Assembly: GCA_021292105.1 (NCBI GenBank)
Contig: CM037872.1
Location: forward strand, 7,799,291-7,863,290
Reading direction: 5' to 3'
Length of the DNA: 64,000 nt
Source of the DNA: Anadara kagoshimensis
Lineage: Eukaryota > Mollusca > Bivalvia > Arcoida > Arcidae
Numbering within the stretch: position 1 is the stretch's first letter; every line of letters starts with the position of its first letter. Position numbers and translations under genes: made by a program. Positions 2,723-61,400 of this stretch are shown piece after piece. The notes under the pieces were generated by a model. The model did not search any database. It had not been told where the DNA came from and worked only from the letters and a program-made list of their open reading frames with translations.

Positions 2723-3850
2723 ATTAAAATATAAAAACAAAACCGTAACTATTAATGTGGTTTAAATATCGCAGTACAAAACAAAGATTATAGAAGGGTT
2801 TTAATTTTATTCATAATTTAAGATTCAATTAACAATGTCAGCAAAACGTTTTACTTTTGACGAACATTTAAAGCTAATGACTAAAATCGTGTGGTTTAAA
2901 TGTCACAGCACAAGACAGGAAGCTTTTAACTTTATTCATCCTAGCATTTCTGTAATTCAGTTCCAATTAAGAATGTCTACAAAACATTGTTAATCTCAGA
3001 CAATGATTACAATAAAATTCATTGAGTCGGATTAAAAATATACTCCCGGAAATAAATTTGTTTTGGTCATCCAACTGTGAAAGACCGATACATAAATGGG
3101 AATAAAAATTAATAAAAAAATTTTTAATGGAATATAAAAAGTTTTGTTGAACAATATGTACCCAAGTATACTTCCTGGCAATAGCTATACACCGTGGCGG
3201 AGTTGTCCAAGTCATATTCTACTTTGAATTTTTATAAAATAATGCATTCAAAATTTCTAATCTCACGGATCACAGCGCCTCTCACTGCCTTTGAATTCCA
3301 ACTACTCATAGTAGTTCGAAAAATTTTATCAGTTTGCTTGTCAAAGGTTTGTGGTTTTCAACTCTGGTAGCATCCACCACCCCTAAATTGATATCCTCGA
3401 TATTTAATGGGGATATAAAACGCATTTATTCACTCCACTCTTCATCCCATCCATTCTACTCCACCCCATAACAATCCATTCCCATCCATTCTACTCCATC
3501 CCATAACCATCCACTTTGAGACATTGAGATACGGTAAAATTTATAAAGATTATAAACCCCCGACTTTGGACAAACATTGAAACATAATGACAAAACCGAT
3601 ACGGCTGCGCTGTTTAGTTAGTGGCACCACCCATAATGAGTGTTGTTGTTTATTTTGTTTTAAGTGAAACGAATTAGAACATAAGGTAAAATATTATAAA
3701 GACTATAAAACCCCCGACTTTGGACGAACATTGAAACATAATGACAAAACCGTAACCACTGGTAAAATGTGCTTTAAATGTCACAAAACAAAATAAAGAT
3801 CACTGAAAGCTTTTAACTTTTCTCCTCCGCAAATATCTGCATTCAGTTCC
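2723..3850 (+). repeat. R1 composite repeat, copies 2 and 3, with SINE-c-like unit
   Basis: Contains the R1 block 2945-3190, a SINE-c-like unit 3265-3420, a CCATTCTACTCCA stretch, and two copies of CCCCCGACTTTGGAC-A-CATTGAAACATA (3556-3590 and 3710-3745). No gene seen. Confidence 0.5.
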
Positions 3851-3855
3851 AATTA
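3851..3855. repeat. Target-site duplication AATTA (left)
   Basis: Five bases directly before the CACAGTG terminus, repeated at 6656-6660 directly after the other terminus. Confidence 0.8.
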
Positions 3856-4290
3856 CACAGTGTGGGAACGGAAGTTGAGTCAAACTGTACAGTTGTCGGT
3901 AGCTCTGTTTATCGAAGCGAGGAATGAAAACATTGGAGTCAAACGTAAGTAAAAATATGTAAAATTATTGTTGTTATGAAGTGTTGGGAGATTTTTCATA
4001 GGTACATGGATATCACTATGTTAATCCAATTTTTAATTATCCAACACATTTTGTGAAAAATCAAGCCTAAAACTTGTATTCGTTTGTTGAACATGATAGA
4101 TCACAGCGGAATTTTCATGAATTCAGGATTCATTCTCAATTTTCTCTATATTACTATTCTATTTAATACCATTCTGAAGACAGTTTGCAAGCTATGAATG
4201 TTAAAAACAAATTGTGACTTATTACAGTACTTAGAAGTTTGGAGAAAACTTTAAAACACGATTTTATTGGACTGTGTGGTTTTCTGTTTA

Positions 4291-4338
4291 CTGTACAGGT
4301 AGCTCACATTTTATGAAATTGTACTGTACAGGTAGCTC
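4291..4338 (+). repeat. Subterminal motif CTGTACAGGTAGCTC x2 (left arm)
   Basis: Two copies, at 4291-4305 and 4324-4338. The same two half-motifs (CTGTACAG and GGTAGCTC, five bases apart) lie within the TIR itself, suggesting transposase binding sites. Confidence 0.6.
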
Positions 4339-5622
4339 GCAACTGGCATTCAAATTCAAAGTATAGAAAGTATAAGGAACGCTTTCATTTAATAGAAATG
4401 CATGTATTAATCGATTATTTTTTTTTTAAAAAAAAAACAAGGTTTGATTTTTTGTATTTGGGTTTCAGGGGTATAAACGTAGGGTTGCTATCTAAAATGC
4501 GTGTATCAGGCGTGACATTCATATTCTAAGGTCATCAACGATCTAAATTACATCAAGTCATAAAAAGGACATGGTCAGACAATACTGTTCTATGTAAATT
4601 AAGGATAATATTGTTTATTATGAACAATATACAACTGAATACTATTATGTCTCTAAAATAGTAAAAGGATATAGATATAATCATAGAATGTGAAGAATCA
4701 CGCCTGGGTAACGCAGTTTTAGAAGGCTCTATGACATTATTTGTCTAAATATCACAAAGCCTCAAATTTGTTTAAAACAAAATAAACAACGTTTACGTTC
4801 TAGACTGTTCATTTGGCCATTGATTGGTAAATATCGTTCAGCTTTTATACCTAAACCTGTTTTTCCGCGATGGAACTTGGTATTTTACATCTTTCATAAT
4901 GATGCAACACAGAAAAGGCCATTGTAACTCAGTAATTCTCATGGTCCAGTGATTTTCTTTGATAATATAAAGTTTAACAGGACAATTTTCCTGAAACTTG
5001 ATTTGCAAGTACAACTTATAGATGCTTTATGTATTTCAACACAAAGCAATTCATTGTGACAAATTTTTATGACCCAGTGACTTTTAGATGATTTTTAAAG
5101 TAATAAAACACTTCTTATGAAACCTGATTTTAGGTACAATTTGGGATGCTTTACATATGACAACACAAAGTTGGTCTTTGTGACCTAGTTTTTCATGGTC
5201 ATGTGATTTTGTTAGATAACTTTTATAGTAGTTTGATGATTTTGATCAACATTGATCGCATATCAAGTCAAAGAAATTTATAAAGTTGCAGAGGATGAAT
5301 GTCAAAGTCTTCTACTTGTAACAATAATGTTATCAATTAATGTTATTTATGTTGCCTTGTGCATTTTCCTGAAGGTTGTTGTAAATAGTAAAACATTTAA
5401 CACGTCTGGTTATTAATGTGCAAATGAAAAAAGGTCATAATTACATAGCACTGATCTGTGCAGAAAAAATAACAATTTCCGGAAGTTGTTACACTTTCAT
5501 CTTCATTCAAATACATCCATCATTGCAACTATTAACACTATCAATTATTTTCTAATGTAAACGTTTGCCACCATTGGGGGTGGTGACTTACCCAGCGATT
5601 GAACCCTGCTCAAACGCAATGT

Positions 5623-6012
5623 CTAGTTCCAAAATAGTTTTATATATGAAAATATTAAGGAATTTTTTTCTCTGCTGAAACCTGTTAATCCCTTAATGAT
5701 CGAGTCCAGAACATATACCTCAGTTGATTCGTTTGGTATAAGAATTGTGTTGTCTTTCTCGTATTCCCTCGGGATGATGTGGAAATTTTTAATTCGAATA
5801 TCTCCTTGATTGAGGTCTGTTTTATTAAATTTCAATTCCAAATCCTTGTGAAATATTATACAATGGTCGACAACCTCAGAAAAAATTAATTTTGCTTTAC
5901 TTTTGCAGTATAAACAATGGAATCGTTTCGGTGTTCTTTTAACATTTGAAATTAAGAAAATCCATCGATAGACATGGAAGATACGGAGAGGACACGATAT
6001 TGAGACAGACAA
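5623..6012 (-). pseudogene. Zinc-finger-like ORF remnant inside Transib/RAG-like element 1
   Basis: 129 codons. Residues about 31-90 look like a folded domain: FHCLYC...VVDHCIIFHKD gives C33-x2-C36-x13-H50-x4-H55, followed by LELKFNKTDL, a NFHIIP segment and ESTEVYVLD. The ends (residues 1-25 and after about 115) look non-coding, so this is probably one exon of a longer gene. Possible splice sites are AAAAG before ACACCG and ACAG|GTTT near LTG. A homologous block occurs in the second element (20562-21006). Its molecular function is not known to me; nucleic-acid or protein binding by a C2H2-type finger is inferred. It is not recognisable as RAG1, RAG2 or a transposase. Confidence 0.5.
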
Positions 6013-6138
6013 CCAGACGGATGCACGAACGGGCGAATAGACTGACGGACAGACAGGGTGATTTCTATATACCCCCTGAACTTCGTTTGCGGGGGGTATA
6101 ATAATGCATTAAACCTTGAATTATTTTGTTTTAATTTT

Positions 6139-6209
6139 GAGCTACCTGTACAGAAAAATTACAGATATTTCGAGCTACCTGTACAGTATTTTTCGAGCTA
6201 CCTGTACAG
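6139..6209 (-). repeat. Subterminal motif x3, inverted (right arm)
   Basis: GAGCTACCTGTACAG at 6139-6153, 6172-6186 and 6195-6209, in inverse orientation to the left-arm copies and at almost equal distance (435 and 446 bp) from the two ends. Confidence 0.6.
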
Positions 6210-6655
6210 TAAACAATCTCCAAGGTGCGAAAAAAAATCTTATTTATAACAATAACCATTTAAAGGAGGGTGATGTCATCTTAATATATGTGTAACTTTA
6301 TATTAAAAGTTGTCTTAAGTATTGTTTTTTACACTAGAAAATCCATCACGCTAGAGAATTTACGCATTTTTCGCTGCAAGTCGATGTATTTTATCTAACT
6401 GTCTCGTGTTCAAGTGTTATTATTGTCGAGTGTATAAAGATATAAATGACAACGAATTCTTAAAATGGTAAATAATTTTCATCGTCAAATTTCTCCATTT
6501 AAATTTCTATCCAGATCTTGCATTATATGCTTAATACAAGTTAAAAAGTACCCACCAACCGTTTCGGACATATTGTTTTTATTTCGTCTCTCGCTTCGAT
6601 GAACAGAGCTACCGAAAACTGTACAGTTTGACTCAACTTCCGTTCCCACACTGTG

Positions 6656-6660
6656 AATTA
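6656..6660. repeat. Target-site duplication AATTA (right)
   Basis: Matches 3851-3855. Removing the element and one copy restores the sequence of the paralogous repeat near 2960. Confidence 0.8.
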
Positions 6661-19725: not shown

Positions 19726-19984
19726 AATCCATTAAAACTGCACAACTATCACTCATTTACAAGTTACAAGTATAGTATGACAAAATTGTATCAAACTCTC
19801 CAGAATTTCGACACTTTTTCGTCGTACCTCATGGAAACTGAAATTATCATTACTGTATCACTTAACAACATCGGCAAACAACAGAAAAGCAATATTATCC
19901 ATCGGAAATTCATCTCTACTTAGTAGTGTGTTGAAGTTTTGCCAAATGTCAATAATACCATACTTTTTAATGTTATAAGAACAT

Positions 19985-33492: not shown

Positions 33493-33881
33493 TCAAACAC
33501 GTAAAATAGTCAGATAAGAGTCGGTATACCAGAGACACGACCTGGCACTTTTTATCCATAGTTGGTCGCCTTTTTTAAGTTTTACCAAAAATGCCATTGC
33601 TCCTGAAGGATAATTATAACTGCGGTGATAACCCGTGTACAGCCGAGCAATATTATGATGATTTTTAACGAGATAGGCATGCGCCCAATCACAAGAGATA
33701 GTTGATAACGATACGTCAACTAAATAAGTCCGCGGATGTTCACAGGTAAACACTCCTTTCCTTGTATCATATCCTTTTCCAAATTCTGAGATAACTCTTG
33801 AGAATACTATAGTTGCGTCAGTGGTAAAACTTGGATTGTTGCTTGGTAACCCTCCTGTAAAACCAATCGTTTTTTGTCGTC
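33493..33881 (-). CDS. C1q gene B exon 2: C1q head domain
   Basis: 389 bp: two bases, 128 codons and a stop. It is one residue longer than gene A's head, from a Tyr insertion in the loop GYHRSYNYPSG. About 32 of 128 positions differ from A, concentrated between the conserved strands. The IVFSRVIS, FGKGYDTRKGVFTC, AYLVKNHHNI and YLTILRV strands are retained. Confidence 0.88.
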
Positions 33882-36800
33882 CTGTAAAATAAATGTTATA
33901 CCGCTCATTAGATATTTCTTGAAACATGAATAACGTTCCAGACAATATCACAAAAAACAAGCATTTTAGTCCATGGCTATAATCAAAAACAACATATCTG
34001 TCCATGTCCATAATAAAAAACAAACGTATTAATCCATGTCCATAATAAACAAGAGGCCCATGGGCCTTAACGCTCACCTGAGGCCAAATACATATCTCAT
34101 TCAAATGATCGTTACACCAATACCTACAATGTTCTTATATACAAAAAGTTCATTGTTTTCGAGATAATGAACCTTTTTGGTATTGTTTTGCAACAGTGAC
34201 CTTGACCTTTGGACCCATAACCTTTTTCTAGACATCAAAATGATCATTGTATCAATACCTACAATATTCTTATATACATGTCTATACAAAAGGTTTATAG
34301 TTTTTGAGATAATTAACCATTTTGGTATTCTTTCGCAACTGTGACCTTGACCTTTGAACCAATGGTCTTAATCAATGTATCAAAATGTTCGTTACACCAA
34401 TACCTACAATATTCTAATATACATGTCTATACAAAAGTTTATAGTTTTTGAGATAATTAACCATTTCGGTATTGTTTTGCATCTGTGACCTTGACCTTTG
34501 AACCCATGACCTTTTTCTATACATCAAAATGATTGTTTCATCAATACCAAAAACATTCTAATATACATGTCTATACAAAACGTTTATAGTTTTTTAGATA
34601 ATTAACCATTTAGGTATTCTTCGCAACTGTTACCTTGACCTTTGAACCCATGACCTTTTTCTATACATCAAAATGATTGTTTCATCAATACCAAAAACAT
34701 TCTAATATACATGTCTATACAAAACGTTTATAGTTTTTTAGATAATTAACCATTTAGGTATTCTTCGCAACTGTTACCTTGACCTTTGAACCCATGACCT
34801 TTTTCTATACATCAAAATGATTGTTTCATCAATACCAAAAACATTCTAATATACATGTCTATACAAAACGTTTATAGTTTTTTAGATAATTAACCATTTA
34901 GGTATTCTTCGCAACTGTTACCTTGACCTTTGAACCCATGACCTTATTCTATACATCAAAATGATTGTTACACCAATACTTACAATATTCTAATTTACAT
35001 GTCTATACAAAACGTTTATAGTTATTGAGATAATTAACCAGTTCGGTATTGTTTTGCATGTGTGACCTTGACCTTTGAACCCATGACCTTTTCAATACAT
35101 CAAAATGATTTTTTCATCAATACCAACAACATTCTAATATGCATGTCTATACAAAAAGTTTATAGTTTTTGAGATAATTAACCATTTCGGTATTGTTTGC
35201 TTCTGTGACCTTGACCTTTGAACCCATGACCTTTTTCTAAATATCAAAATAATCGTTTCATTAATACTAACAACATTCTAATATACATGCATATACAAAA
35301 AGTTTATAGTTTTTGAGATAATTAACCATTTTAGTATTCTTTCGCAACTGTGACTTTGACCTTTAAACCTATGACCTTATTCAATATATCAAAGTGTTTG
35401 TTACACTAATCCCTACAATATTCTAATATATATGTCTATACAAAAAGTTTATAGTTAATGAGATAATTAACTATTTCGGTATTGTTTTGCATCTGTGACC
35501 TTGACCTTTGAACCCATAACCTTTTTCTATACATCAAAATGATTGTTTCATCAATACCAAAAACCTTCTAATATACATGTCTATACAAAAAATTTATAGT
35601 TTTTTAGATAATCAACCATTTACAAAAAGTTTATAGTTAATGAGATAATTAACTATTTCGGTATTGTTTTGCATCTGTTACCTTGACTTTTAAACCCATG
35701 ACCTTATTCTATACATCAAAATGATTGTTACACCAATACTTACAATATTCTAATTTACATGTCTATACAAAACGTTTATAGTTATTGAGATAATTAACCA
35801 GTTCGGTATTGTTTTGCATGTGTGACCTTGACCTTTGAACCCATGACCTTTTCAATACATCAAAATGATTGTTTCATCAATACCAACAACATTCTAATAT
35901 GCATGTCCATACAAAATGTTTATAGCTTTTGAGATAATTTATTATTTCGGTATTGTTTTGCATCTGTGACCTTGACCTTTAAACCCATGACCTTTTTCTA
36001 AATATCAAAATGATTTTTTCATAAATACTAACAACATTCTGATATACATGCATACACAAAAAGTTTATAGTTTTTGAGATAATTAACCATTTTAGTTTTC
36101 TTTAGCAACTGTGACTTTGACCTTTGAACCTATGACCTTATTCAATATATCAAAGTGTTTGTTACACTAATCCCTACAATATTCTAATATATATGTCTAT
36201 ACAAAAAGTTTATAGTTAATGAGATAATTAACTATTTCGGTATTGTTTTGCATCTGTGACCTTGACCTTTGAACCGATGACCTTAATCTATACATCAAAA
36301 TAATTGTTGTATCAATACCAACAATTATTTTGATGTATAGATTAAGGTCATCGGTTCAAAGGTCAAGGTACATTCTAATATACATGCCTATACAAAAAGT
36401 TAATAGTTTTTGAGATAATTAACCTTTTCGGTATTGTTATGCATCTGTGACCTTGACCTTTGAACCCATGACTTTTTCTATACATCAAAATAATTGTTGT
36501 ATCAATACCAACAACATTATACATGCCTATACAAGATAATTAACCATTTCGGCATTGTTATGCATCTGTTACCTTGACCTTTGAACCCATGACCTTTTTC
36601 TATACATCAAAATGATTGCTGTATTAATATCTACAACATTCTAATATACATGCCTATATGAAAAGTTTATAGTTTTCCAGATAATAATTAAAATCAGACG
36701 TAAAAGAATTAGGTCATGACCTTCAAAATTGACCTTGATCCCATTTTGAAGGTAATTACAAGAACATGTCAAAACTGAAAACCCCATGTCATTATCTGGT

Positions 36801-44522: not shown

Positions 44523-44908
44523 TCAAACACGTAAAATAGTTAAATAGGAATTAGAATACCAGTGACAGTTTCCGTCACTTTTTATCCATATTTGATCACC
44601 CTTTTTAAGTTTAACCAAAACTGCCGTGGATCCTGATGGGTAATTTTTAGTGTGATAACCTGTATACACCCGAGATATATTATGGTGATTTTTTACAAGA
44701 TATGCACTCGCATCATTACACGAGGATGGTGTTAAAGAAATATCAACTAAATAAGTCCCCGGATGTTCACAGGTAAACACTCCTTTCCTGGTATCATATC
44801 CTTTTCCAAATTTTGAAATAACTCTTGAGAATACTATAGTTGCGCCAGTGTTAAACCTTGGATTATTCTTTTGTAACCCTCCTGTATAACCAATCGTTTT
44901 GTCTTGGC
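44523..44908 (-). CDS. C1q gene A exon 2: C1q head domain
   Basis: 386 bp: two bases completing the split Gly codon, then 127 codons and a stop. It carries the whole C1q jelly-roll domain with the conserved FGKGYD, GVFTC, GTYLV and KKGDQIWIK segments. It is followed by a poly(A) signal 35-40 bp past the stop. Confidence 0.9.
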
Positions 44909-45890
44909 CTAGAATATAAATTATACTTTGTTCATAAATCTCAATAATCAAGGCGATAAAAAATAATACCTAATCAAAACTGCCATCCATAAATTACTAT
45001 ACAAATTTACAATAATCTTAATATTTTTGAGGCAAAATATAAAAATGTTGGAAATTATTATCGAGTTATATTAAAAATGTACTGCAAAATAATCAGCATT
45101 AGCAGAATGCCGCTTTAATTAACCTAATTATGTGATTTGTTCAGTCTGTAATGACCCAGTTTTAAAAATATATAATGATTTATGCACGGCAGTGTATACA
45201 CAGTTACATACAAATTTAAAAACATTGCTGATGATAATAAAACACCAATTGAATAAGTAGAATTAAGGTCAACTATTTTGTTGCTAGATCCGAGATCAAG
45301 AATTGAGTTCCAAGTTCTCCCATAGTGATACTTTGAACCTATGTCTTTTACAAACATAGGTAATGTTAAGTTACATGGCATATTAATGGCAATGTTTAAG
45401 ACTTTTTCAGTGCGTCTTATCTTGAGCGATTTTAGACTGGAAGCATAAGATCTACCGACTGAAGGCTGTGAAAAACATAACATCTTACATTACGGATTTT
45501 CAATTCATTCATCGCGTTGTACCTTGAACATTTTCGAATTTTCAAAAGTAAAAATGTATTCTAATAAGTTCTACTTCGAACATTTTTAGATTGGAAATTT
45601 TAAACAAAACATTTTGTTTATGCCTTACCTTGGTGTTGCTTTATCTTATTCAATAACAATTTGTATTCCGATTTGAAATTCTGATAAGACTCAAGTATTG
45701 TCTTCATCTCTTTGTCTCTTTTCTTGAATTCGTTCATCATTTTCTCTCTTTCAAATCTTTCTTTCACCAGCAGATCAACAATATCGGAAAGTAAGCCACT
45801 GGATCTCTTTGTTGGCTTCATGGCATTGGAAACATAACCAGACAACATACACCACACCAAAAACAAAGTTGCTAATTTTATGTCAAACAT
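44523..45890 (-). CDS. C1q domain-containing protein, gene A (2 exons)
   Basis: Predicted secreted C1q-domain lectin-like protein of about 215 aa. Exon 1 (45890-45629) encodes a hydrophobic signal peptide (about residues 1-23, MFDIKLATLF...) and a charged heptad-like stem (about 30-87), probably a coiled coil for trimerisation. Exon 2 (44908-44523) encodes a complete C1q head with the family core IVFSRVISKFGKGYD, GVFTCEHPGTYLV and the terminal strand YLTILRV. The junction is seen directly: donor CAAG|GTAAGG, acceptor TTCTAG|GC, phase 1, making a Gly codon; the 720-bp intron is 44909-45628. There is no collagen region. Bivalve C1q proteins are a large, expanded family of soluble pattern-recognition molecules, so an immune or agglutinin role is inferred. 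The start is the first Met of the signal peptide, because an in-frame extension seen in gene B is broken here. Confidence 0.88.
45124..45483 (-). other. Unassigned 119-codon open frame in C1q gene A intron
   Basis: An open frame within the 720-bp intron, same strand as the gene. It resembles no family I recognise and lacks a counterpart in gene B. Probably chance; an alternative exon cannot be excluded. Confidence 0.15.
45629..45890 (-). CDS. C1q gene A exon 1: signal peptide and coiled-coil stem
   Basis: 262 bp, 87 codons plus one base. Residues 1-23 form a signal peptide. The stem is rich in K/E/R with Leu, Ile and Met spacing typical of coiled coils (SDIVDLLVKERF to LLLNKIKQ). It ends at a GTAAGG donor. 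It is about 87% identical in protein to exon 1 of gene B. Confidence 0.87.
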
Positions 45891-57468: not shown

Positions 57469-58454
57469 CTAGTATGAAGCTGTAGTTGTATTTATACCAT
57501 TATAGTGCGTGTTAGTGTCACTAGAATGCATGTGCTCCGTAGTGTGAGTAACATCAACGTCACTAGATTGTGTGTGTTCTGTAGTGTGAGTAACATCCTT
57601 ATCACTAGACTGTATTTGTTCGGTAGTTTGAGTAACATCTGTATCACTAGATTGCGTGTGTTCCGTAGTTTGAGTAACATCAGCGTCACTAGATTGTATT
57701 TGTTCCGTAGTTTGAGTAACATCAGCGTCACTAGATTGCGTCTGTTCCGTAGTTTGAGTATCATCCGCGTCACTAGATTGCGTCTGTTCCGTAGTTTGAG
57801 TAACATCAGCGTCACTAGATTGCGTCTGTTCCGTAGTTTGAGTATCATCCGCGTCACTAGATTGCGTGTGTTCCGTGGTTTGAGTAACATCAGCGTCACT
57901 AGATTGTATTTGTTCCGTGGTGTGAGTAACATCAGCGTCACTAGATTGCGTGTGTTCCGTAGTTTGAGTATCATCCGCGTCACTAGATTGTATTTGTTCG
58001 GTAGTTTGAGTAACATCAGCGTCACTAGATTGCGTGTGTTCCGTAGTTTGAGTAACATCAGCGTCACTAGATTGCGTCTGTTCCGTAGTTTGAGTATCAT
58101 CCGCGTCACTAGATTGCGTGTGTTCCGTAGTTTGAGTAACATCAGCGTCACTAGATTGCGTCTGTTCCGTAGTGTGAGTAACATTAGCGTCACTAGATTG
58201 TATTTGTTCCGTAGTTTGAGTAACATCAGCGTCACTAGATTGCGTGTGTTCTGTAGTGCGAGTAACATCCTTATCACTAGATTGTATTTGTTCCGTAGTG
58301 TGAGTAACATCCGTGTCAATAGATTGCGTGTGTTCTGTACTTTGAGTATCATCTGTGTCACTTGACTGCGTGGTGTGTTCTGGTTGCATGTGTTCCATTG
58401 TCACAGTGACATAAGGTTCATATGCTTCTGTTCTATTCGACGTCTCATCTTCAT
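57469..58454 (-). CDS. Chitin-binding gene, last exon: 20 x 14-residue acidic Thr/Ser repeats
   Basis: 986 bp. After about 35 residues (TSNRTEAYEPYVTVTMEH...) come twenty perfect-length 14-residue units such as TQTTEQIQSSDADV, varying mainly at Q/H/R, H/Q, T/I and V/D. The tail is HYNGINTTTASY and then stop. The 42-bp DNA period keeps other frames and the opposite strand free of stops, so the long ORFs there are shadows. A palindromic MITE begins 60 bp past the stop; no nearby AATAAA was seen. Confidence 0.8.
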
Positions 58455-61400
58455 CTAAAAAAATGTTATTAACTATTGATGTCACTTATACGAAAGCTTG
58501 TTCATGCCACTTTGTAATCTGATTTTTTTTTAAATCGTACCTACGATTTTAAAAATCGTACCTACGAATTAAAAAATTGTACATACGAATAAAAAAAATC
58601 GTACCTACGAATTTTAAAAGTCGTATATACGATTTTAAAAATCGTACCTACGAATTATAAAAAGAATCGTAGCTACGATTTTAAAATTGTACCTGCGATT
58701 TAAGAAAAAAAAATCAGATAACAAAGTGGCACGAACAAGCTTTCGTACACTTATACATTATGCATACGGTGATATAATTAATATCAAATATTTCAAAGTC
58801 TGACCAACCGGGTGTCGAAAGTATGCTAGCATGAACACATGATCAAATTGCCAACCCTGTGCGCTGTCGGTGTTCATTCTTATGGCATAAAGTTCGGCGA
58901 TCCGTTGCCTACGTTGTATTTTGTATACAATTATTGCGAAATATTGAAAGTTAAACCTGCCAGATTTCGCTAGCACGCACACAAACTCAGATGAACCAGG
59001 TGTCACCAGAATGTTAGCATGTACACAGGTTAAACTGCCAACCTTGTAGATTAAACTTAAACAGACCAACCCGATAATTGTTTAAAACCAGACCCGAGGG
59101 ATGATCAATTTCGTTTAGATCAGACAGAATTTTCAGACCAGATCGAGTGAGGATCAATGTTCAGACCCGAACCCTATCTAGGATTAAATTGAAATTTACC
59201 TTACAAACAAATACAGAAATAGGTTATTAAATTATACAGTCAAACCTGTCCATAAAGGTCACGCAAGGGAACCTGTAAAAGTAACTTTTATGGGCAGGGG
59301 GCTCTTATATACAGGTTCAAATAACATGAATAAAGAGCAATGGAGTTCGCAGCCGTATCACGTATAACGTTTGTTGTTGACGTATTGGAAAACGTTAACG
59401 TCCCAAATCTAGGAATAACGCTATTATTACGGGAAACCGTGAACTTATATGCCTCCATAATCAATGGAAATAATTTTTTCCCACAAACGATAGGAGGTAT
59501 CACGTGTTACAGCAGCGAACCCTTGGGATAAAATTTCATTCGCTTTAAAAAGCAAGTGATCTTTATATAGAGGTGGCCTTTAAGACAGGTTTGACAATAC
59601 ATTGTTATTACCATTAAATATTCCGCGAGTTGTAGATGACGGCACACCAGTCGTCACGTGACTGGACAGTACTGCAGCAAGCAAACTTCCGGTCGTATCA
59701 CTGTTAACGGAAGTAACCGATTCTGTAGTTGAAGATAATTCCTGGCTATCGCTTTGTGTCTCGTTGGTGTTTTTGTTGTATTTACTATAACAGAAACAAC
59801 AGAAAAAATGACGTCACATTGATATACAAACTATAGATAGAGGCAATTTATAGCAAACATATCTTACCTGGCAATGTATTACTGTTCAATCCATTCCGAT
59901 TGTGACATTGAATTACGCTTTATTTTCATAGAAAATCAAATAAAGTTGAATAATGTTTGATAAAGTTCACTTATTTGTACCTTGTCGTATGCACAGCATC
60001 AATTATCATAAAGAAAGGAAAATGTTGGCGCCATGGGTATTTTTATGGCGAAAATGGTGATGTTTACACCGGAAGTGATGTCCTTGGTGACGTTTTACGT
60101 CATATACGCAGCAAGATACGGCATTTGCCTGGTTTTTCAACATGTTTAATCCCCAAAACGCCAAAGTTTAACTCTGTGCAGAAATATTCTAGGCTAATCG
60201 CGGATGCGCATACAGATTATCTGTTACGACTAGGTACAAGTAAGAGAAAGACCCTAGTGTGAGAAAGTTTGTCAGTTTACTTGCCGATTGTTATTTCCTC
60301 CGTATACTCCTATTTCCTCCACCAATCCTGAACTGGCCCCAGTTTCACAATCATTCCTTAGCTAAGATTTTTTGCAAATTTTTGTAATCTCTTTTTGGAA
60401 CTACTCTTGAATATTTGTGTCAAAACTAAATGCAAATGTTTTAATCTAGAAATGATCTTAAAAATGATACCTTAAATTTCTAAATATATTGAAAATTAAC
60501 AAAATTATAAAGATTCTTTTGAAATTTTGCAAGATTTAAATTAAGGAAAATCTTAGCTAAAGAATGATTGTGAAACTGGGGCCTGGTCGCTCCTGTGTAA
60601 ATTTTAAAAAAATCTTGACTAGGGGTAAAACCGCATTTTTAGTTTCATTCTTATTAATATTGCAAAATTTTGTTAGAGTTTATAAGCCTTTTCATTTTGA
60701 AGTCTGTGTAAGTTTCTACAGGACATTATTGACATCTGATGTTAATTGACGTCATATTGATGTCAGATACACACGTTATTATCTTACCAATTTGGTCCTG
60801 CAGTTCCACACCGTCCACAGATGGTCTCTGGCTTGGCACAAGCTCTTCTTTTTGGGTCAAATAACTCCGTGCCTAAACATGTCCCAAAAGATTCAAAACG
60901 ACCATTCGTACACCGGAAATAGTTCTTACATCGACCAAACGCGTCGGCATGGTAACCATCACCTTTTATTCTACACATTGTGTTTATTTTGCTGTATTCT
61001 ATTGGTATTCTGGAAAGCGCCTCACACCTTTTAGTAAGGGGAGAGAACCACGTTATAACCGGAACTCTGGGACAAATCTTGATCTTGACAACTCTTTCAT
61101 CTTCACATTCCAAGTAATAAGGCAACAAGTTCTGTCCATCTCTGTAAGGATTTACACCATCCGGCTTACCGATGCATGATGGGTATTTTGAGGCACAAGG
61201 TTGAAGACACTCTTCATCTTTGCACCAATGTTGCCTGTATTGACCTACAAAAACATGTGCACATCAGTAAGAAAGAAAGATGGTTAGTTGGTTGAATGTT
61301 GCTTAACGTGACATCAGCAATTTTTCAGCTATTCACGACGAGAACTATTTTATTCATCTCTATGGATTAATCTATGAACAATTTTGTGTATGCATGTGAA

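Follow-up and report, generated by a model that had tools for sequence, protein, structure and literature searches.

The window analysed here is a stretch of 64,000 nucleotides from Anadara kagoshimensis, and all window positions are counted from its start. It contains an inserted element of 2,800 bp (3856-6655), which ends in terminal inverted repeats (TIRs) of 74 bp. The left TIR lies at 3856-3929 on the plus strand and the right TIR at 6582-6655 on the minus strand; they are identical at 69 of 74 positions, and each begins with the heptamer CACAGTG. The initial annotation had described TIRs of 66 bp with two mismatches, both starting with CACAGTG and flanked by AATTA on each side. We recovered all of these features: the first 66 bp of the 74-bp repeat differ at two positions, and AATTA stands at 3851-3855 and again at 6656-6660 as a target-site duplication (TSD). 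The annotation had also placed the empty site in a sister repeat near 2960. The sister copy of the surrounding host repeat (2882-3120, plus strand) has no insertion and carries a single AATTA at 2965-2969. When the flanks of the element were joined with one AATTA, they aligned to this copy with a score of 245, compared with 87 for the best of 200 shuffles. As the joined flanks reproduce the sister repeat, the element represents a true insertion with a 5-bp duplication. It is a real, once-active transposon.

Subterminal repeats are present at both sides of the element. Two copies of TACTGTACAGGTAGCTC lie on the left (4285-4342, plus strand) and three copies of GAGCTACCTGTACAG on the right (6132-6215, minus strand), the latter inverted relative to the left set. 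The motifs CTGTACAG and GGTAGCTC were found by eye within the TIR too, and the subterminal repeats together with these TIR motifs are possible binding sites of the mobilising enzyme. Elsewhere in the window there are two reading frames with C1q domains, both on the minus strand (33493-34104, 47.7 bits; 44523-44951, 62.4 bits), and a 42-bp tandem repeat of about 20 copies (57469-58485), which is open in several frames (TTEQTQSSDADV repeats).

We searched the genome, 1.115 Gb in 36 contigs, for other members of the family. The first 26 bases of the TIR had 425 matches with up to three mismatches, and the reversed pattern had none. There were 26 full-length copies with 95.3-98.1% identity to the window element. 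We examined 41 loci, the window and 40 copies drawn from the top search matches, a source that biases the sample to young copies. Both ends were present in 38 of the 41 loci, the window included. Among these 38 two-ended copies, exact TSDs of 5 bp were found in 31, TSDs of 6 bp in four and of 4 bp in one; two had none. By shuffled pairing of the flanks, only 0.93 exact 5-bp TSDs would be expected. Three copies identified later, L073 (2,905 bp), L074 (1,491 bp) and L075 (2,900 bp), each have a 5-bp TSD. The identity of L075 to L073 is 85-87% over long stretches, which indicates that L075 is older. The genome-wide search thus agrees with the duplication length on which the initial annotation relied. 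The TSDs of the 31 copies are AT-rich, with a GC content of 21% versus 35% in the 200-bp flanks. CACAGTG was present at 34 of 38 ends on one side and 33 of 38 on the other, the rest being CACTGTG (4 and 4) or CATAGTG (1); the older copy L075 has CACAGTA on one side.

With no more than one mismatch allowed, a sister TIR type, CACAGTGTATGAACGGAA, had 660 genome matches (control, 1). The 100 of these that were listed contain 38 facing pairs, of which 31 have a spacing of 2.7-3.25 kb; in one listed pair, at C1:38292296-38301236, the ends are separated by 8.9 kb. RSS-like ends of this kind occur widely in the genome.

No transposase frame was seen among the frames of at least 110 aa in 14 loci. This supports the proposal of the initial annotation that the element is a non-autonomous DNA transposon with its enzyme encoded elsewhere. 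Three longer copies (L026, L049 and L055) were considered as autonomous candidates and rejected; they carry other insertions, and the 915-aa frame of L049 has a start that resembles, by eye, a LINE endonuclease. L058 was also discarded: it matches the first 373 bp only, lacks the second end and has no frame longer than 108 aa. The copy set looks like a family of deletion derivatives.

Traces of a gene were nevertheless found. L073 has an internal stretch that is absent from the window element, and its minus strand reads as a decayed protein. Using 87 residues of this protein as a genome query, we obtained relatives in long open frames: 1,101 aa on contig C16 (54% identity), 1,345 aa on C1 (47%) and 446 aa on C5 (67%). 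Parts of two of these loci were taken for comparison: L076 from the C5 locus, and L077 from the C16 locus, which covers 1,062 of the 1,101 residues and does not include the N-terminus. The proteins belong to a YqaJ family. Pieces covering residues 1-318 survive in L073 (E 9e-50), and residues 13-318 in L075 (E 8e-45). The window element has an open but diverged relic on the minus strand (5677-5922). It corresponds to the zinc-finger-like N-terminal part of the protein (residues 13-92 in the L076 frame), is identical to that frame at 32 of the 84 positions aligned (E 3e-9), and preserves the HC..C ... H pattern. At E<=1e-3, a YqaJ-family relic was detected in 29 of 41 copies (the 38 two-ended copies plus L073, L074 and L075) and 12 had no match; reversed controls gave 0 of 41. 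A second YqaJ-family relic lies outside the element, at 19852-19971 of the window on the minus strand (19 of 40 positions identical, E 3e-6, one stop).

The C5 gene lies beside an end similar to those of the window element. This end, at position 185 of L076, starts with CACAGTGTATGAACGGAACTGTAC and points into the gene. Of its first 16 bases, 14 agree with the window TIR, and an inner stretch of 29 bases, GGTAGCTACTGTTCAGCGAAGCGAGAGAC, aligned to the right TIR of the window with a local score of 46, the best of 2,000 shuffles reaching 25. The position of the gene agrees as well: residue 13 is 731 bp from the end in L076, and in the window element it lies on the fitting strand at a distance of 733 bp from the right TIR end. 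The distances are longer in L073 (1,118 bp, residue 1) and L075 (1,042 bp, residue 13) because of added repeats. At C5, stops divide the gene into frames of 446 and 816 aa, through either an intron or damage. The C5 element was read at one end, and no copy that was read had both TIRs together with an intact gene. As far as can be told from sequence, C5 is the closest gene-bearing relative, with a CACAGTG end homologous to the window TIR. Around eight YqaJ-family matches on C1-C3, no perfect sister TIR occurs within 190 kb. The distance between a weak YqaJ fragment at C12:18141552 (E 0.0018) and a window-type end is 10.7 kb.

The layout of the family protein is a zinc-finger-like N-terminus (judged by eye), a conserved region (FLRFMGGWKNQGQ ... 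INFAVP ... CVDGKKI ... GDVDLWG), the YqaJ domain and a C-terminal segment with weak similarity to the RNase H domain of the P-element type. The YqaJ domain (PF09588) was recognised at residues 443-594 of L077 with 35.9 bits and in L076 with 23.1 bits, both above the cut-off of 22. The lambda-exonuclease family model TIGR03033 of NCBIfam scored 42.1 bits, below its cut-off of 68. Seven other loci align to L077 up to residues 844-1001, beyond the RNase H-like stretch, with 34-44% identity; some of them have stops, and the 1,345-aa frame on C1 has none. The zinc-finger-like N-terminal segment had no Pfam match, and no THAP match was found in the YqaJ proteins read, of which L077 is without its N-terminus. 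A weak and partial match to PF21787 (TNP-like_RNaseH_N), which we take to be of the P-element/THAP9 type, occurs inside both YqaJ frames (L077 and C5), below the cut-off in each. In L077 it scored 20.1 bits, against a cut-off of 24.6, and covers half of the domain without a recognised first catalytic residue. Searches of the PDB with L077 and with the C-terminal part gave weak and implausible matches only. In other bivalves, YqaJ genes are reported as a contracted family in a scallop (PMC10225492) and an expanded one in a deep-sea clam (PMC7826175).

The genome contains 40 PF21787 matches. At two loci on C13, strong matches lie 2.0-2.3 kb upstream of YqaJ-family matches on the same strand, and thus 2 of 40 YqaJ-family matches have a P-type neighbour. 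In a test of 38 P places, without the two weak internal PF21787 matches, against the 40 YqaJ matches, random placement gave at least two such neighbour pairs in 5 of 20,000 trials. As one of the C13 loci may be a copy of the other, both going back to one event, the P-type neighbourhood is suggestive only. Near C5 and C16, no PF21787 match was found except the weak internal ones. Among the matches listed, a P-type RNase H match of identical score recurs at no fewer than 17 places, 15 of 17 being in 790-aa open frames; this set is probably a recently amplified intact family.

We also surveyed the RAG1-family proteins of the genome. The Pfam RAG1 profile had one match (30.8 bits; cut-off 25), in an 832-aa frame, L059. 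With L059 as the query, about 22 RAG1-family loci were found among the best 60 of 235 candidates scored, short C-terminal matches apart. Two or more of them are probably the same locus assembled twice; the loci on C29 and C13, 99.5-100% identical in the compared flanks, are probably such a case. Several loci have open frames of 655-832 aa. Three of the proteins, L059, L062 and L066, have D, D, CxxC, DxLH, HV and E in common, in this order; these residues are presumably catalytic. In the PDB, a profile of these three matched RAG1 over 343 profile positions (E 3e-6) and the RAG1L chain 6b40 (E 1.6e-4), which shows that the genome holds RAG1-family proteins; L062 alone had no match in the PDB. 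The C-terminal end of L062 has a CxxCxxxGHxxxxC motif like that of RAG1L CTT* (PMC7204232). L062 has three copies identical over the frame and a fourth, on C10, split into two frames; the copies on C9 and C10 were covered by the protein search. The copies on C4 and C8 have about 7.8 kb in common, and the right limit of this segment is without a CAC end. The last 72 residues of L059 recur, with 72-76% identity, at 31 or more places among the matches listed; 30 of the 31 listed have no stop, and the open frames are 73-81 aa long (e.g. L063, C17:49561351-49561566).

The initial annotation had assigned the element to Transib or to the RAG-like group, and the ends do recall both. RAG-like (RAGL/ProtoRAG) and Transib elements share with the window family a TIR that begins with CAC in an RSS-type heptamer, as well as the 5-bp TSD. 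The RSS heptamer is CACAGTG, and ProtoRAG starts with CACTATG (PMC8289069). Non-autonomous RAGL copies are reported from the pearl oyster (PMC7204232), and a mollusc survey reports one Transib element (PMC10294476). The likeness does not extend further into the TIR. The 9-mers after spacers of 12 and 23 bp (TTGAGTCAA and TGTACAGTT) match the nonamer ACAAAAACC at 1 and 2 of 9 positions in a comparison made by eye, as expected from the earlier remark that no nonamer is obvious. Protostome RAGL TIRs have the consensus CACTWMCAAACKTYKBB, with TSDs described as invariably 5 bp (PMC7204232). The window TIR has TGG, not AAA, at positions 8-10, and the agreement is limited to CAC and the length of the TSD. 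In addition, the TSDs of RAG, Transib and ProtoRAG are said to be GC-biased (PMC8289069), whereas those of the window family are AT-rich.

The coding evidence points away from RAG1 as well. A non-autonomous Transib or RAG-like element could be moved by a RAG1-family protein of this genome, with the YqaJ relic being a captured or accessory gene. CACAGTG ends with 5-bp TSDs would by themselves fit Transib, and some of the roughly 22 RAG1-family loci with open frames might supply the enzyme. However, we found no relic of the three RAG1-like proteins in any of the 41 copies by tblastn or HMM search (nothing below E 1). The stretches of 8.9, 8.4 and 5.7 kb around L059, L062 and L066, three of the approximately 22 loci, contain no window-type TIR, and these loci were rejected as the source of the element. 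None of the 22 loci lies within 20 kb of a perfect TIR among the 100 of 425 TIR matches listed, and none of 30 RAG1-like matches is within 10 kb of a YqaJ-family match, the nearest being 73 kb away. No similarity between the YqaJ-family and RAG1-like proteins was detected (best HMM E 0.06 with three sequences; hhalign probability 0.3%), the profiles being shallow, with three rows each. The gene that goes with the window-type end is of the YqaJ family, as read in one TIR-bearing relative at one end, and not RAG1-like; as far as sequence can show, this is a relative encoding another kind of enzyme, which the initial annotation had itself named as speaking against its reading. The window element is probably not Transib or RAG-like, and mobilisation by a RAG1-family protein seems improbable. 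Since the protein encoded by the nearest relative with a gene is unrelated and carries a nuclease domain, the likeness to the antibody system is probably convergence: the RSS heptamer and the 5-bp stagger would resemble those of RAG and Transib without kinship.

In our view, the window element is non-autonomous and arose by deletion within a DNA transposon family whose gene-bearing relatives encode a large YqaJ-domain protein (probability about 0.78). In the mechanism that we propose, the encoded YqaJ-family protein, or a P-type transposase partner, would act in trans, binding the TIR together with the CTGTACAG/GGTAGCTC subterminal repeats. The enzyme would then cut at CACAGTG and insert the element into AT-rich targets with a 5-bp stagger. 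Which protein performs the catalysis bears on the classification. In one tentative version, the family is an undescribed lineage or superfamily of cut-and-paste transposons of eukaryotes, in which a single large enzyme joins the lambda-exonuclease-like YqaJ domain to a P-type RNase H core that is split or degenerate, and the RSS-identical heptamer and 5-bp stagger evolved independently. Another version, also doubtful and not exclusive of the main reading, of which it is a form, makes the family a P-superfamily element with a P/THAP9-type transposase and the YqaJ protein as a second, accessory gene. It is favoured by the strong P-type RNase H matches directly upstream of the YqaJ-family matches at the two C13 loci and by the weak P-type match within the YqaJ proteins; subterminal repeats and internally deleted derivatives are further features common to P/THAP9 elements and the window family. 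The internal transposase sites of P elements have a spacing that has been likened to that of 12/23 RSSs (PMC7776569), and a second ORF encoding YqaJ has a precedent in ISL2EU (PMC4482050). By analogy with ISL2EU, the YqaJ protein could be accessory, with a separate transposase. However, P elements and the zebrafish THAP9 elements have TSDs of 8 bp (PMC7776569), not 5 bp, and no THAP match was seen in the YqaJ proteins read, L077 being covered from beyond its N-terminus. PF21787 is missing near C5 and C16 beyond the weak internal matches, and the TIR-linked C5 gene begins about 700 bp from the end, which leaves no room for a preceding transposase.

ISL2EU (PHIS), or another known superfamily with a YqaJ gene, could also be thought of as the home of the window family. 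A YqaJ second ORF is reported in most ISL2EU candidates (PMC4482050), and a YqaJ-domain protein is likewise encoded here, in the relatives. ISL2EU elements, however, have 2-bp AT TSDs, TIRs that usually start with GG, and a separate DDE/THAP transposase ORF (PMC4482050), compared with 5 bp and CACAGTG in the window family. We therefore regard such an assignment as highly improbable. In a search of the open literature, we found no description of a YqaJ-bearing transposon with these features.

As a non-autonomous DNA transposon, the element is ordinary. Its interest lies in the likely convergence and in the little-described YqaJ-bearing family to which it belongs. If our reading is right, a perfect RSS heptamer with a 5-bp duplication is not diagnostic of Transib or RAG relatives when only non-autonomous copies are at hand, because a different protein has left its relics in a family that combines the two and is abundant (425 end matches). 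A YqaJ-bearing group of transposons would also be indicated, one that has long open frames in this genome and an enzyme accessible to direct testing.
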